A stretch of DNA of 43,512 nucleotides from an uncultured Saprospiraceae bacterium (GTDB lineage Bacteria > Bacteroidota > Bacteroidia > Chitinophagales > Saprospiraceae). The stretch covers positions 1 to 43,512 of the forward strand of contig CALLXF010000039.1 in assembly GCA_938015805.1 (NCBI GenBank). The letters run 5' to 3'. The position numbers and the translations under genes are program-made. Positions 27,733 through 35,546 of the stretch are shown here, one piece after another (position 1 is the first letter of the stretch; the number at the start of each line of letters is the position of its first letter). The notes under the pieces are model-generated. The model had not been told where the DNA came from. It ran no database searches and was given only the letters and a program-made list of their open reading frames with translations.

Positions 27733-28254
27733 TTACAATGCTTTTTTATCTAAATACTTTTTAAACTGTACTGCATTTTTATATCCTCGTGTTATATCTA
27801 TCTTATTGAGATGACTATCTAGAATCACAAAAGATGGATAAGACAAGCGATTATCGGATAATAATGAAGCAAGCGTATGATGACCTCTCCTGGCACCATT
27901 TTTAAAAGAATAAGTTTGACCTTTAAAATCTAAATCCTTTTTGGTTTCAGCATTTAATTTTATCATGTAAAATTGCTGATTTAGATAAGATATTAAGTCA
28001 GGATCAGAAAATGTTTGTTCGTCCATTACATGACACCATTTACACCAGTCAGTGTATATATCAACGATTACTTTACGAGGCTCATTTTTTTGTAAAGCAT
28101 CAAGCGATTCTATATCATGCCATATAAGTTGCCGCAGATCTAGATCTTTTTCTATGCTAGTATGCGATGCCTGAGCATCCTCAACGCAACTGTAAAAAAC
28201 CAGCGAAGTTAAAAATGCAATGATACTTAAAACGATTAATCTTAAAAATTTCAT
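27733..28254 (-). CDS. Thioredoxin-fold lipoprotein (DUF255-like)
   Basis: A 173-residue envelope protein with a lipoprotein signal (lipobox LVFYSC, Cys23). Its thioredoxin fold resembles the DUF255/YyaL N-terminal domain: VDIYTDWCKWCHVMDEQTF with C71xxC74, then FYMIKLNAETKKDLDF and the cis-Pro loop SYPSFVILD. It is probably a periplasm-facing disulfide reductase or isomerase. It lies 115 bases downstream of a membrane-bound LuxR-type regulator on the same strand; the two might be cotranscribed. Confidence 0.8.
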   Translation of the reverse strand: MKFLRLIVLSIIAFLTSLVFYSCVEDAQASHTSIEKDLDLRQLIWHDIESLDALQKNEPRKVIVDIYTDWCKWCHVMDEQTFSDPDLISYLNQQFYMIKLNAETKKDLDFKGQTYSFKNGARRGHHTLASLLSDNRLSYPSFVILDSHLNKIDITRGYKNAVQFKKYLDKKAL

Positions 28255-28369
28255 ATTGAATATTTTGATTGTGAATAAAAAAAATTACTTCACAAAAATG
28301 AGCTTCCATTCATATGATACATTGATAATTAGGGTTGAAATGGGGCCCTCCCCCGGGTGTAAAAAAGTA

Positions 28370-29425
28370 CTAGACCCCTGTTTTTAATATACTTTCAGCC
28401 ATTTCTTTAGCCTGAGTTCGATTTTTGACATGGAGCTTTGTGTAAAGTTTATTGATATGAGATTTAACTGTGCTTAACTCTATAAATAACGCACTTGCTA
28501 TTTCTTTATTAGATTTTCCTTTATGGATCAAGTCCAATATCTTCAATTCTTGCGAGGTATAGTTTAACTTTCTAAACTCCTGTTTTGGGACATTTTTAGA
28601 AATATCAATACGCAGTTTAGCGACATAATAGAGTAAAGCTATAATTACACAAAATAAAAGCCCACATAAAAGCTTCCATAAAACGGGACTACTATCATTA
28701 TAATCTCCCGAATAATATCTCAATTTGTTTATGTAATCTGCAGTGTATGGATGATCTTTTAAACTTGATTTCAATACTTCTGCAAAAATCATATATCTGT
28801 CCTCATTGGTATCATAGTAGCTTTCGTAATCAGTACAATTTATTGCTGCTAGCGAAACCAAAACACTACTACATGTATCAGCAAAAGCAAAAAGATCCTT
28901 GTTTAACTTATTTTTTGAAAATTGTAATTCAGAAGGAAATTTAATTTCATAATACATATAACTAGGATAAATTAACTTACCTAGGTTATTCATTAGTTCG
29001 TTTTCCTTATCTCCTATAATAGAATAATCACCAAATGGGGCAAAAGTGTTTTGATCCGCATCGATTCTAATTTTACTACTATTATCTAAGACAAGATGAA
29101 TAAAATTGTGATTATCACCTCCTTCATATAAACAAGCGTTAAATTCTGAATTCTCTTCCTTTACAAGATAGAGCTTGTAAAATTGAGAATATTCTGGTAG
29201 GTTATCTCCTGTTAATTTGAAATTTCCATCAACATCGATGTTAGCTGAATTGATAATAAACTCAGCGTTTGCACTGGTATAATAATCTAATTTATCAATA
29301 GTGGCTAAATATATGGTGGATTGCCATTCCCCTTTCATATTTATTGTACCTTCTATTACATAACTCGCTTGAACTGCTGTTATACAGAACATGAGGAACG
29401 ATATGGTGTAATAGACTCTTTTCAT
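28370..29425 (-). CDS. Membrane-spanning regulator with LuxR-type HTH
   Basis: A 351-residue protein with a signal sequence (about 1-20, AVQA). An extracytoplasmic domain of about 225 residues begins with a beta-rich segment (YVIEGTINMKGEWQSTIYLATID...) resembling DUF4369-type N-terminal domains. One transmembrane helix follows (249-268, LWKLLCGLLFCVIIALLYYV). A cytoplasmic LuxR/GerE helix-turn-helix spans 287-345 (TSQELKILDLIHKGKSNKEIASAL, STVKSHINKLYTKL). It should be a one-component receptor: signal sensed outside the inner membrane, DNA bound by the tethered HTH. Ligand and target genes are unknown; the thioredoxin-fold lipoprotein downstream is the nearest candidate. The DUF4369 likeness is weak; the HTH and topology are clear. 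Confidence 0.78.
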   Translation of the reverse strand: MKRVYYTISFLMFCITAVQASYVIEGTINMKGEWQSTIYLATIDKLDYYTSANAEFIINSANIDVDGNFKLTGDNLPEYSQFYKLYLVKEENSEFNACLYEGGDNHNFIHLVLDNSSKIRIDADQNTFAPFGDYSIIGDKENELMNNLGKLIYPSYMYYEIKFPSELQFSKNKLNKDLFAFADTCSSVLVSLAAINCTDYESYYDTNEDRYMIFAEVLKSSLKDHPYTADYINKLRYYSGDYNDSSPVLWKLLCGLLFCVIIALLYYVAKLRIDISKNVPKQEFRKLNYTSQELKILDLIHKGKSNKEIASALFIELSTVKSHINKLYTKLHVKNRTQAKEMAESILKTGV

Positions 29426-29518: not shown

Positions 29519-30157
29519 TTAGTATTTGATAATCAAATCCAGTTCATTATTCTCATACAATTTATTTTGTTTGCCAAAATCAAACTCAAGAATCAATTTC
29601 GAACGAGTAAATAAGATATCTTTTTCTTTCTCAAAGTTTGAGATGTACTTTGATTTTATATTCCATTCATCTATTTCGAATTCTATTTTTGTTAGCTTAC
29701 AGATCTGATTTGTATGAGACTTTGGTTCATTGATTTCTTTCTTACCTCCTCTATACGGTAATCTAAAAGTCCATGGAAGTTTTGGATTATCAACATTAGG
29801 TAAAATATCTATTGACATTCCTTGTGGGAAATAATTTGGTTGATAGATTTCTGCCTTTTCAAATAGATCATCAGTTTCTTGAGTATTGACAAGACATAAT
29901 CCAAATCTTGAACTCCCATTTTGACTAAAGTTTGCTCTATATCCTAGTTGTGTTTCCAAAGTCGGTGATTGATTAACTTCGTCTTCATTGATCACCCATA
30001 ATATTTCTAAGAAGAAATTATTGAAATAAAATTTTCTGTTTGCTGTGCCTTGTCCTTTATGAACTCTATTACTTCCTTCTATAAGCCCAAATTTTACTAA
30101 ATCGTTTGCCTCCTGACCTTCATTAGTTGAGAATATAAATATGTGGTCAATTTCCAT
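29519..30157 (-). CDS. VOC/glyoxalase-fold protein
   Basis: A 212-residue protein starting at the ATG at 30157 (MEIDHIFIF), which begins the first VOC beta strand; a possible start 30 bases upstream only adds basic residues. The pattern IDHIFIFS... GLIEGSNRVHKGQGTANRKFYFNNFFLEILWV is that of a vicinal-oxygen-chelate (glyoxalase-like) domain, with a possible metal His at position 5 and Glu in LEILW. No signal peptide. The reaction is unknown. Lower GC than its neighbours and isolated context might mean recent acquisition, but this is only an impression. Confidence 0.68.
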   Translation of the reverse strand: MEIDHIFIFSTNEGQEANDLVKFGLIEGSNRVHKGQGTANRKFYFNNFFLEILWVINEDEVNQSPTLETQLGYRANFSQNGSSRFGLCLVNTQETDDLFEKAEIYQPNYFPQGMSIDILPNVDNPKLPWTFRLPYRGGKKEINEPKSHTNQICKLTKIEFEIDEWNIKSKYISNFEKEKDILFTRSKLILEFDFGKQNKLYENNELDLIIKY

Positions 30158-30372
30158 TTTTCTTTCTCTTTTGTATAGATGAAGCACATGAAAATAAACA
30201 AGCTATTTAGATCATTCTAATAACAGGATGCCACTTAAGAAATAATTAACTTGTCCCCGTAATAGGCTTATTATTCCTATGAATTGAGCATTTTTAAGTA
30301 AAACCTTATGTTTTTTACAAAAAACCTATATTTTCATTGAATAAAAAGGGCAACATATCGAAAATAATAAAG

Positions 30373-32207: not shown

Positions 32208-35200
32208 ATGAAAACATATAACAAATCTAAACTTGCAGCTTTTTTACTGCTATTCTCGATCATTCTAATTTCTAACTCTAGTAACCCCCCAAATGGTCGT
32301 ACTGGTGCTCCTGGAGATAGTACTTGTGCCAGTTGTCATTCTGGAACAAATTCTTCTTTAGACGGAGAAATGAGTTTTGATGGGTTACCAGCCACAATCG
32401 ATGCTAACACTACATACACCATAACAGTAACTGTGGATAATCCTAATGGTAATGGAGTTAGAGGTGGATTCCAATGGGTTTCTCTAGATGAGAGTAATAA
32501 TGATGCAGGAACAATGGATAACGAGGGAAACAATTCCAAAGTGACTCTTGCAGGAGGGCGTACCTATCATGAGCACCAGCCAGCACAAAACTTTAACGGA
32601 AGTAATGAGTCTAGTTATACAGTAGAATGGACAGCCCCTTCCGGACCAGATGGCGAGGAAATAAAGTTCTGGGGAGCTGGCGTAATTGGTAATGGAAGCG
32701 GAAGCTCTGGAGATCGAGTTGTATTTAATACTGTAACAGGAATACTATCAGCAAGTAGCACCCCGCCTACAGCAACGATCATTAGCCAAAATGATGTCAG
32801 TTGTAATGGTCTAGATGATGGATCAGCTACCGTCCAAGCGATGGGTGGAGCTCCTGGATATTCTTATCTATGGAATGATTCTCAAGGTCAGACAACAGCT
32901 ACTGCATCAAATTTAGAAGCAGGTGATTATACGGTCACTGTTACAGATACTAATAACGAGACGGCAACTGCAATGGTCACGATAAGTGAACCAACAGAAA
33001 TAGATATTACGGTAGTCCTCAATACTCCAGAAATGTGTGGAAACATGGATGGCTATTTAGAGGTTTCAGGATCTGGTGGAGCTGGAAATTATTCTTATGA
33101 TTGGTCCAATAACGGTACGGGAAATTTCCAATCTAATCTTGATTCAGGCACATATACAGTAACCGTTACTGATGATAATAATTGTACAGCTAGCATGATG
33201 CTTACTGTGACAATCGATAACGGTACAGCTGGGGCTATACCGACTATTATCATCAATCCAAGTTGTGCGGGATCCGCTAATGGGTACATAGAAGTAATGG
33301 GTACCAATGGCGTAGCACCCTATACATTTTTATGGAATACAGGAGCTACGGGCCCGATAGTAAATAGTTTAACAGCAGGTGTTTACGCAGTAACAGCAAC
33401 AGATGCAAATAACTGTATGGGTATCAATGTGTTTACCTTAGTAGATCCGGCGGGTTTTACAATTAGTACCGATTCTACAGATGTTGTTTGTGCTGGAGAC
33501 AATAATGGAGTGGCATCAGTATCAGTTGCGGGTGGTTCAGGTATGTTTACCTATTTATGGTCTAATGGTGCAGCTACTGATACCATCACAAATTTATCAG
33601 GCGGAACTTACTTTATAACTGTAACAGATGAAAATGACTGTGAAAGAATAGATTCCATTATCGTAAACGAACCGAATATGCTAATGGCTAATTTAAGTGC
33701 CACAGAGGAAACAGCCGGTATGATGAACGGATCCGCAACTGCAAATCCATCTGGAGGAACGCCAGGATATTCGGTCGCATGGAGTAATGGAGCTATGGGA
33801 CTGATGATAGATAATTTATCTTCCGGAATGTATATAGCAACCGTGACTGACACGTTAGGTTGTACACTTATTGATAGTATAAATGTAAGTTCGTCTGATT
33901 GTGGTCTTTCCGCGACCTTTGACGCTATTGATATTAGTTGTTTTGGAGATAGTAATGGAAGTATAGATTTAACCAGTTCTAATGGCTCAGGTACTGTGAG
34001 TTATAATTGGTCTAATGGTGCTATGACAGAAGATATAAGTGGTTTGTCATCTGGAATTTATTCAGTAACCATTAGTGATGATTTAATGTGTCAGGTAATG
34101 ATCGACTCTATAGAAATTATACAGCCGGATTCTTTTTCTATATCACCTAATATCATCATACAACCAGGATGTCAAGGCCAAAACTTTGGAACCATTTCTA
34201 CTATAAATACTGGTGGTACAGCACCCTACTCTTACTCATGGGCGATAGGATTTACTACGGATACGATAAACGTACTCAGTGGATTTTATCCAGTTACAGT
34301 GACCGACGCAAATAATTGTACTGCCTCTACCCTGATAAATTTAAATGGAGATGATAATAATCCTCCTAATATAGTAGTAGGAGATTTTACACTTTATTTG
34401 GATAACACTGGACTAACTTCTACTATCGACTCTACTCTATTTGATCTAGGTAGCTCAGATGATTGTGATCTAGGACCTTATCTTTTTGATACGACAGCAT
34501 TAGATTGCTCATTCCTAGGAATGTCAGAATTCCCTATTGCTCTTGAGGATATTAATGGAAATATTGCTTACGATACAGTAACTGTAACTGTAATCGATAC
34601 TTTTCCACCAGATCTGTTCTGCTTAGATGATGTAACTATTACAGAATGTGATGGCTGGACTTTCGATATGCCTCTAAGTTTTGATAACTGTGCAGCTAGT
34701 GTTACACAGACTAGCGGACCCGTTATGGGCGATATATTAGTATTAGGTAATAATGTATTTACATACGAATCAGTAGATAGCTCTGGAAATAAATCAGAGT
34801 GCTCTTTTACCGTTACTGTAGAAAGTGCTTTTACGGTGACTCCGGTTCCTCAAGACGTAAGCTGCTTTAATTTTGCTGATGGATCAGTCACTTTCCAGAC
34901 AACTGGTGGAAATGCTCCTTATAATTTTATCATAGGCGGCGTGACTAATCCTAATCAATTAGAAGCAGGTAATTATTTCGTAACCGTTACTGATAATTCA
35001 GGTTGCATTGTTCAAGATTCTTTTGTGATTAATGAACCTCCAGTCCTGTTTATTTCTGATGCAAATATTACTAATTCTACTAACTCTAATTCGATGGACG
35101 GAGCTATCGATATAACTGTAGATGGAGGTACTGGAAGTTATACATTTGAATGGTTCCTAAATGGAATGGCTATATCTAATGATGAAGATCCTTCAGGACT

Positions 35201-35546
35201 TGCTCCAGGTATATATACATGTGTCGTAACTGATCAAAACGATTGTGTCTACACATCACTAGATTACACCGTAGAAGCTACTACTTCCGCAAACGAAGTA
35301 GCCATCTTAAGTGATCTAAGAGTATTTCCTAATCCTGCTTCGGAAGAATTAAATATAAATTTAGAATCCTCAGTATTTACAATACAACGCATAAACGTTG
35401 TATCTATTGATGGAAAAACAGTTCTTACCCAAAACATAAGTTCTAATAACAATAGAATGGATATCTCTAACATACAGTCTGGAGTGTACTTACTTCAGAT
35501 GATCCTAAAAGATGATATCGTCTATAAAAAGGTGATTATAGAATAA
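32208..35546 (+). CDS. Large SprB-repeat T9SS cargo with CxxCH N-terminal domain
   Basis: A 1112-residue extracellular protein. After a signal peptide (about 1-25) comes a choice-of-anchor V/Reelin-like domain (about 28-185) carrying TCASCHSG near residue 42, a c-type-haem-like CxxCH. Seven SprB-type repeats of ~75 residues follow (about 189-714), each with a xxCxGxxNG start, a YxWSNGA middle and an LxxGxYxVTVTDxxNC end. Then comes an HYR-like beta-sandwich pair (about 715-873), two more repeats (874-1024) and a T9SS type A sorting domain (VFPNPASEELNINL). SprB repeats are known from Flavobacterium gliding adhesins, so surface adhesion is likely. No gliding genes are nearby. A terminator follows. 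Haem attachment is inference from one motif. Confidence 0.88.
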   Translation: MKTYNKSKLAAFLLLFSIILISNSSNPPNGRTGAPGDSTCASCHSGTNSSLDGEMSFDGLPATIDANTTYTITVTVDNPNGNGVRGGFQWVSLDESNNDAGTMDNEGNNSKVTLAGGRTYHEHQPAQNFNGSNESSYTVEWTAPSGPDGEEIKFWGAGVIGNGSGSSGDRVVFNTVTGILSASSTPPTATIISQNDVSCNGLDDGSATVQAMGGAPGYSYLWNDSQGQTTATASNLEAGDYTVTVTDTNNETATAMVTISEPTEIDITVVLNTPEMCGNMDGYLEVSGSGGAGNYSYDWSNNGTGNFQSNLDSGTYTVTVTDDNNCTASMMLTVTIDNGTAGAIPTIIINPSCAGSANGYIEVMGTNGVAPYTFLWNTGATGPIVNSLTAGVYAVTATDANNCMGINVFTLVDPAGFTISTDSTDVVCAGDNNGVASVSVAGGSGMFTYLWSNGAATDTITNLSGGTYFITVTDENDCERIDSIIVNEPNMLMANLSATEETAGMMNGSATANPSGGTPGYSVAWSNGAMGLMIDNLSSGMYIATVTDTLGCTLIDSINVSSSDCGLSATFDAIDISCFGDSNGSIDLTSSNGSGTVSYNWSNGAMTEDISGLSSGIYSVTISDDLMCQVMIDSIEIIQPDSFSISPNIIIQPGCQGQNFGTISTINTGGTAPYSYSWAIGFTTDTINVLSGFYPVTVTDANNCTASTLINLNGDDNNPPNIVVGDFTLYLDNTGLTSTIDSTLFDLGSSDDCDLGPYLFDTTALDCSFLGMSEFPIALEDINGNIAYDTVTVTVIDTFPPDLFCLDDVTITECDGWTFDMPLSFDNCAASVTQTSGPVMGDILVLGNNVFTYESVDSSGNKSECSFTVTVESAFTVTPVPQDVSCFNFADGSVTFQTTGGNAPYNFIIGGVTNPNQLEAGNYFVTVTDNSGCIVQDSFVINEPPVLFISDANITNSTNSNSMDGAIDITVDGGTGSYTFEWFLNGMAISNDEDPSGLAPGIYTCVVTDQNDCVYTSLDYTVEATTSANEVAILSDLRVFPNPASEELNINLESSVFTIQRINVVSIDGKTVLTQNISSNNNRMDISNIQSGVYLLQMILKDDIVYKKVIIE
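32772..34349 (+). repeat. Seven tandem SprB-type repeats within the adhesin-like gene
   Basis: Seven degenerate units of about 75 codons encode Ig-like SprB repeats sharing Cys-GlyAspxxGly, TrpSerAsnGly, GlyxTyr and ValThrValThrAsp. The units differ at the DNA level, so they are old duplications, not a recent expansion. One unit (the fifth) lacks the first cysteine. Confidence 0.75.
34827..35279 (+). repeat. Two further SprB-type repeats
   Basis: Units eight and nine, separated from the first seven by an HYR-like segment. Unit eight keeps DVSCFNFADGS and NYFVTVTDNSGC; unit nine lacks the first cysteine. Confidence 0.65.

Follow-up and report, generated by a model that had tools for sequence, protein, structure and literature searches.

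The window, that is, the whole 43,512-nucleotide stretch of DNA analysed here, carries on its minus strand an intact open reading frame with an ATG start (28370-29425) which, according to the frame itself, Pfam and family profile searches, encodes a transmembrane one-component regulator of 351 amino acids. Its first 20 residues (29366-29425; MKRVYYTISFLMFCITAVQA) form a short, basic-hydrophobic leader that, judged from its sequence, looks like a signal sequence. The leader is followed by a sensor domain (residues 22-241; 28703-29362), classed as DUF4369-like by hhalign and BLAST, a predicted transmembrane helix (about residues 247-268; 28622-28687) and a GerE/LuxR-type helix-turn-helix (HTH; residues 290-343; 28397-28558). 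The protein contains a single strong hydrophobic segment, with peak windows starting at residues 247-248 (KD 2.5) and K/R directly after it, and because this segment is combined with a signal-like leader, residues ~21-246 are probably periplasmic. The GerE match (PF00196) is strong (E 7.5e-16, 57.9 bits against a curated cut-off of 23.5) and was found again, with E no higher than 0.5, in all but one of the 33 relatives aligned (32 of 33), the exception (L067) being truncated. AF2 models of the window protein and of L035 were both poor (mean pLDDT 46.8 and 38.6), and the window model places the HTH helices with block pLDDT of 71-91 and a low-confidence helix at residues 247-278. Pfam found no receiver, autoinducer-binding or kinase domain in the regulator, and no OmpR-type winged HTH (Trans_reg_C). 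By these missing domains the protein would be neither a two-component response regulator nor a quorum-sensing LuxR protein, and it appears to lie outside the ToxR/CadC family proper, with an architecture that is analogous only; the one predicted transmembrane helix between a periplasmic sensor and a cytoplasmic HTH fits a ToxR/CadC-like mode of action. The earlier note had described a signal-like leader, a domain of ~225 residues, one transmembrane helix and a GerE-type HTH acting without a phosphorelay, and reading frame, hydropathy and Pfam bear this description out.

The regulator belongs to a family that is real and not a product of chance. Matches at E <= 1e-15 occur in 29 of 150 family genomes, and a sensor-only profile (E <= 1e-40) retrieved close members, here called clade 1, from 47 of 398 sampled family genomes and 26 of 112 genera. 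One clade-1 member lies outside the family, in the same order (G150), a class-wide survey of 395 genomes returned the window's own protein and distant members only, and no relative was found in the viral contigs searched. In the regulator tree (n = 64), which was built without the truncated L067, L150 with its in-frame stop, L056 with several stops and the fusions L170 and L172, a branch supported at 100/99 separates all 46 clade-1 rows from the rest. The sole named relative retrieved by the regulator protein comes from an uncultured Saprospiraceae bacterium (58% identity), and four further matches within the regulator's own genome (3.59 Mb, 118 contigs) span the HTH only. Among the incomplete members, the distant regulator L056 (G091) is broken by stop codons and probably a pseudogene, and the reading frame at L067:1-40 runs into the contig edge in SYTHLRAHETEADL, which we take to resemble sequencing-adapter read-through. 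Elsewhere in the window, positions 29519-30187, upstream of the regulator, encode a weakly Glyoxalase_3-like protein (E 0.00034, under the cut-off) that has no counterpart among the 34 loci compared, and positions 32208-35546 encode a secreted repeat protein of 1112 amino acids whose C-terminal end, by eye, is sorting-domain-like.

The sensor of the window protein had no Pfam family match, DUF4369 (PF14289) included, and 3 of the 33 relatives gave a weak match to this family, the best at E 0.0018. Profile-profile comparison is more informative: hhalign aligned the sensor with the N-termini of DUF4369-thioredoxin proteins at probabilities of 98.8 and 98.7, as against 1 for the negative control, in which sensor profile A3 was set against thioredoxin alignment A2. 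In addition, genome G154 encodes a natural fusion of 418 residues which joins a sensor-type domain to a TlpA-type thioredoxin and matches the window protein by BLAST (E 3e-17, 28% identity), and a similar sensor-thioredoxin case was found by profile in G278 (E 3.8e-9). When solved structures were searched by sequence with the sensor profiles, A3 gave no match and A4 one chance-level match (Plexin-B2, E 0.31). The likeness to domains on thiol-disulfide proteins that had been claimed for this sensor is thus upheld by profile comparison and by the natural fusion, which place it, in all likelihood, in a DUF4369-like superfamily whose domains usually stand N-terminal to TlpA-type thioredoxins. Signal input is hence a suggested function for a DUF4369-like domain.

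The neighbouring minus-strand gene (27733-28254, with its ATG at 28254) is the proposed target and encodes a thioredoxin-fold, DsbH/DsbD-gamma-like envelope protein of 173 amino acids, assigned by Pfam/NCBIfam and alignment A2. Its product matches Thioredox_DsbH (E 9.1e-13) and Thioredoxin_2 (E 7.3e-9) and, with its CxxC motif, belongs to the thioredoxin-fold reductases (PF03190/PF13098); at 35.5 bits it falls below the cut-off of 190 for the DsbH equivalog NF043050. The CKWC active-site motif lies at 28033-28044, and WC..C with both its cysteines is invariant in 19/19 aligned homologues. A cysteine that closes the signal-like segment was seen by eye in 12 of these 19; of the periplasm-facing thioredoxin-fold lipoprotein put forward in the earlier note, the fold with its CKWC therefore stands, and the lipoprotein part is only partly general.

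In 38 of the 45 clade-1 loci that could be assessed, the regulator has an A2-type thioredoxin gene no more than two genes away. The survey covered 48 such loci (the window and 47 others), with L035 and L144 counted once as they share a contig and L044, L067 and L158 excluded as contig ends. Thirty-one of the linked thioredoxin genes follow the regulator directly on the same strand, one lies downstream of a split regulator (L150), two are divergent (L037, L145) and four are separated from the regulator by one intervening ORF (L039, L040, L138, L139). Other neighbours are mostly not common among the 34 loci compared. The seven unlinked loci belong to genera g15, g63 and g18, and their genomes keep a related thioredoxin gene elsewhere; in the thioredoxin tree the adjacent type of L046 is joined by the g15 copies (99/99) and that of L049 by the G124 copy (100/99), and the g63 copies have a looser placement among both adjacent and other copies. 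The 38 adjacent thioredoxins do not form one clade (6 label changes, at least five of them forced by well-supported branches), so the linkage has at times been gained, lost or relocated. Homologues lacking this linkage had been named beforehand as what would speak against regulation; the linkage is widespread, and the seven unlinked copies keep the candidate site described below, as a weak variant in G615. At L150:5932-7011 (G516), an in-frame stop splits the regulator between the sensor and the transmembrane-HTH part, which marks either a pseudogene or a sequencing error; the thioredoxin gene and its site persist there.

An EM motif search found a 24-bp motif, GGGGTCTAGTCCCTTTTTCCACCC, upstream of all 38 adjacent thioredoxin genes, with a log-likelihood ratio of 1017 from 150 starts; five resamplings under a first-order Markov model, each given 50 starts, reached 127.2-148.5. 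The window copy is the candidate operator GGGGTCTAGTACTTTTTTACACCC (28355-28378, minus strand), which overlaps the last two codons and the stop of the regulator and scores 36.9 with the position weight matrix (PWM); the runner-up in the window, at 28332, scores 6.4 and lies around the operator's own second half-site. Among the adjacent sites, 34 of 38 score at least 25.8, the weak ones being L050 (12.6), L139 (13.3), L048 (19.2) and L053 (23.7). Since these 38 regions, with one site forced per sequence, served to train the PWM, the fair tests are sequences outside the training set. Nine thioredoxin genes on contigs other than the regulator's, taken from genomes without adjacency or with the regulator at a contig end, scored 8.4-40.6, eight of them above 21 (G014, G537 and G503, 26.6 each; G121 and G515, 27.2 each; G573, 28.4; G005, 21.2; G124, 40.6; and the weak variant in G615, 8.4), and a second thioredoxin copy in G019 scored 24.6. 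Every other dispersed thioredoxin paralogue that was scored came out negative, among them the second copy in the window's own genome (L192, -26.4) and twelve paralogues from seven genomes that lack a clade-1 regulator. The upstream region of L208 was too short for the motif scan. In G550 the nearest copy (L182) has no more than 126 bp in front of it, and the site of its sister L142 lies 190 bp upstream, so that G550 stays outside this comparison.

Whole genomes were scanned as well. When one mismatch at most was allowed, 23 sites came up, spread over 22 of the 48 genomes that carry the regulator, and the 32 genomes lacking a clade-1 regulator had none; when two were allowed, the numbers were 34 and 1, and 32 of the 34 were thioredoxin sites by position. 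The 32 comparison genomes were a non-random choice, drawn from no-match lists together with five genomes with only distant matches, and at least five of them hold a distant regulator. At three mismatches, matches appeared in both genome sets, as in the reversed-pattern control, and the window's own genome still yielded exactly one (28355-28377). The motif thus comes close to one copy per genome and is hardly ever found where a clade-1 regulator is missing. Within the 220 bp before the regulator start there was no positive-scoring site that would indicate autoregulation, except at the two divergent loci.

The position of the motif relative to the promoter suggests how it might act. As given in the available part of PMC9723704, the sigma-A -7 box of one flavobacterium is TAnnTTTG and lies at -12 to -5. 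We analysed spacing in 46 upstream regions (the 38 adjacent ones and 8 others; L176 and L209 not included) and found 21 exact -7 boxes (TANNTTTG) downstream of the site, of which 20 lie 52-55 nt away; shuffled sequence would give 4.4 boxes over all positions. A box that deviates by no more than one mismatch is present at 52-56 nt in 31/46 regions and absent there from the remaining 15; at 54 nt exactly it occurs in 20/46, against 0.012 per position elsewhere. Moreover, a second half-site, C[CA]A[CT]C, stands at offset 41 in 25/46 upstream regions. In the window, this half-site reads CAACCC (28332-28337, minus strand), 23 bp after the first and at the same offset as in relatives, and the likely -7 box is CATTTTTG (28293-28300, minus strand), with one mismatch to TAnnTTTG and at 54 nt after the site, again the spacing of the relatives; another box with one mismatch, TAATTTTT, follows the site at a distance of 67 nt and was the one picked automatically. 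Between the operator half-sites, at 28338-28354 (minus strand), there is a GC-rich stretch, GGGGGAGGGCCCCATTT, in otherwise AT-rich DNA, and no such stretch was seen in the relatives' printed upstream regions. The clustering of 20 of 21 exact boxes at one distance from the motif suggests an activator site, and the geometry of the candidate operator looks activator-like. The idea that the regulator controls the thioredoxin gene, as the earlier note had proposed, thus gains support from a conserved, promoter-phased candidate site.

The motif also extends beyond the linked thioredoxin genes. It lies right after two distant regulators that have no A2-type thioredoxin nearby, L165 (32.4), which is followed by a gene for an esterase with TPRs, and L169 (25.7), which is followed by a DUF1573 gene, and weaker motifs were found at L065, at L063 and before the small secreted gene that precedes the L058 regulator (18.0). 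With a slightly softened PWM, these five distant loci score 14.1-34.4, as against a maximum of 13.6 in 185 control windows of 700 bp, which none of the other 14 distant loci scanned exceeded. Since it follows distant regulators with different next genes, the motif is tied to the regulator family: it accompanies part of this family, and the target gene varies. A small secreted protein of 145-255 amino acids is encoded just upstream of the distant regulators L057, L058, L060, L062 and L064, overlapping them or nearly so, and a TACYTTTTTCAACCC-like half motif precedes some of these genes; the one scanned (L058) had no Pfam match. Perhaps this pairing represents a different sensor-partner operon. 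Two further distant regulators, L164:7079-8272 and L059:7230-8423, adjoin other redoxins (of TlpA/AhpC-TSA type and Thioredoxin_7 type, respectively) and have neither the cysteine pair considered below nor a clear site.

We also examined extra sites at 18 loci, allowing up to three mismatches. Several of these lie inside ORFs or are chance-like. Others precede CarboxypepD_reg/OMP_b-brl_3 outer-membrane genes (L243, L245, L246; G102 30.5, G481 26.3), with a G552 site (24.2) before a similar outer-membrane protein assigned by its likeness to that of G481, a DinB/MST-like gene in G515 (31.2) and a DUF2911 gene in G573 (30.4). Two precede a dsbD-type gene (L244, L253), namely in G423 (1 mismatch, PWM 34.9) and in G150:C111 (3 mismatches, 31.6). 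DsbD powers periplasmic thioredoxins, which makes these two sites suggestive; they occur in only 2 of 48 genomes. A DsbD_N family search at E 1e-8 was too strict (11 of 58 genomes), and a protein query, used instead, found dsbD-type genes in 62 of 65 genomes. Of 20 regions before such genes (3.3-4 kb each), that of G423 alone holds a site and 19, including the one before the window genome's own dsbD, do not, which rules out dsbD as a general second target.

The sensor itself carries a conserved pair of cysteines. Cys98 (codon at 29132-29134, minus strand) is present in 48/48 clade-1 proteins and Cys185 (28871-28873, minus strand) in 46/48; exactly these two cysteines are found in 40 clade-1 sensors, and six have a third. 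In a count that left out L056 (stops) and the fusions L170 and L172, the pair occurs in 46/48 clade-1 members and in 0/18 distant regulators. This distribution speaks for a role in thiol chemistry that is particular to the clade with the linked thioredoxin, and it is plausible that the sensor senses envelope redox, one of the two signals suggested in the earlier note; none of the findings touches on the other, cell-wall state. The two exceptions, L142 and L158 of genus g67, keep Cys98 and have Thr at position 185. As L142 retains both a linked thioredoxin gene and a site (PWM 25.8), an intramolecular Cys98-Cys185 disulfide is evidently not essential everywhere.

We therefore propose the following model. 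The regulator would sit in the inner membrane with its DUF4369-like sensor in the periplasm and its LuxR-type HTH in the cytoplasm, where the HTH may bind the GGGGTCTAGTCCCTTTTTCCACCC site, together with the CCACCC of the second half-site, ahead of the thioredoxin promoter and activate that one gene. The product, a predicted periplasmic CxxC thioredoxin, would reduce envelope disulfides, Cys98 and Cys185 would probably report the thiol state, and the thioredoxin made may in turn feed back on its regulator. Sequence comparison documents the architecture, the linkage, the site, the promoter spacing, the co-occurrence and the sensor homology. Activation of the linked thioredoxin gene through a promoter-phased operator is, in our view, very probable. 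A thiol switch in the sensor is evenly poised between yes and no, and feedback by the thioredoxin on the regulator is put forward tentatively, at somewhat below an even chance. Taken as a whole, an envelope switch devoted to one periplasmic reductase, and probably responsive to thiols, is the explanation that we believe to be likely. More broadly, the window protein might represent an undescribed family of Bacteroidota transmembrane transcription factors that recruited as their sensor the DUF4369-type domain otherwise serving envelope thioredoxins, each member driving about one linked envelope gene by way of an operator common to the family, and in which clade 1 has closed a one-component redox feedback loop across the inner membrane, its thiol switch being reset by the induced thioredoxin; we offer this generalization as a conjecture that may well prove too wide.

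The alternative to be taken most seriously keeps the same circuit and lets the sensor answer a ligand, a misfolded envelope protein or cell-wall material, with the cysteine pair as a structural disulfide and the thioredoxin as effector only. Structural disulfides are common in periplasmic domains, the pair is absent from distant family members, some of which adjoin a secreted protein of no known family, a DUF1573 gene or an esterase, and genus g67 has lost Cys185 while L142 keeps the circuit. The thiol switch is further weakened by the scarcity of VKOR, a route to periplasmic disulfides, which turned up in 4 of 28 genomes, the window's own not among them. Against a non-thiol sensor, the pair is confined in our sample to the clade with a linked A2-type thioredoxin, the sensor has a relative outside the regulators that is joined to a thioredoxin, and two extra sites precede dsbD-type genes; we regard this reading as possible and rather less than probable. 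That the regulator represses the thioredoxin gene is unlikely: LuxR-type HTH proteins can activate or repress, but here, on the upstream side of the -7 box, the site stops more than 50 nt short of it and the second half-site about 30 nt short, at a fixed spacing that resembles an activator's. It is very improbable that the motif is the regulator's terminator or an RNA leader element, or that another protein binds it. The sequence GGGTCTAGACCC followed by T's is superficially terminator-like, and the window copy overlaps the regulator's stop codon; however, in the divergent loci (L037, L145) the motif is oriented toward the thioredoxin gene and so does not serve as the regulator's terminator, it is kept where that gene lies on another contig, and wherever a -7 box is recognised it stands upstream of it and hence outside the transcript. 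These features and its near single copy lead us to reject a terminator, an RNA leader and a mobile repeat, and its co-occurrence with the regulator, including distant regulators with other next genes, speaks against a different binding protein as well. Finally, that the two genes are neighbours by chance or shared descent with no regulation between them, as the direct tandem in 31 of 38 linked loci might suggest, is scarcely credible, given that the linkage outlives reshuffled surroundings and the site accompanies unlinked copies.

Envelope thiol monitoring and repair seem to be little described in Bacteroidota, and searches of an open-access library, judged by title and the start of the abstract, returned no description of such a LuxR-type membrane regulator or of its site; the name DUF4369 occurs in just two papers of that library. 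The candidate circuit is compact, with one sensor, one operator at a fixed promoter distance and one reductase, and since its parts are located to the base it is testable with a reporter. Several known systems share some of its features. NarL/FixJ-type LuxR response regulators have an HTH of the same family, whereas the window regulator has no receiver and spans the membrane. The DUF4369-TlpA/AhpC-TSA envelope thioredoxins of Bacteroidota have an N-terminal domain homologous to the sensor, joined there to a thioredoxin and here to a transmembrane helix and an HTH. SusR-type inner-membrane regulators of Bacteroides likewise combine periplasmic sensing and a cytoplasmic HTH in one chain, but respond to carbohydrates and use a different sensor. 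The DNA-binding domain of CadC and ToxR is an N-terminal winged HTH. Similar to the window regulator, CadC, ToxR and TcpP are single inner-membrane polypeptides with a cysteine pair in a periplasmic sensor, a cytoplasmic DNA-binding domain and no phosphorelay. In the available part of one study, a periplasmic disulfide between Cys208 and Cys272 of CadC supports the inactive state, and periplasmic disulfide oxidoreductases are without major influence on activation (PMC3096576); for TcpP, the available part of another indicates that two periplasmic cysteines matter (PMC7017273). Among membrane-integrated activators, CadC comes nearest as an example of one whose state is set by a periplasmic disulfide, though the statement on its oxidoreductases counts against the proposed thiol switch. 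Unlike these proteins, the window regulator carries a C-terminal GerE/LuxR-type HTH and a DUF4369-like sensor, with a periplasmic thioredoxin as its proposed target, and what appears to be new is the combination of a ToxR/CadC-like architecture with a LuxR-type HTH and a new sensor.
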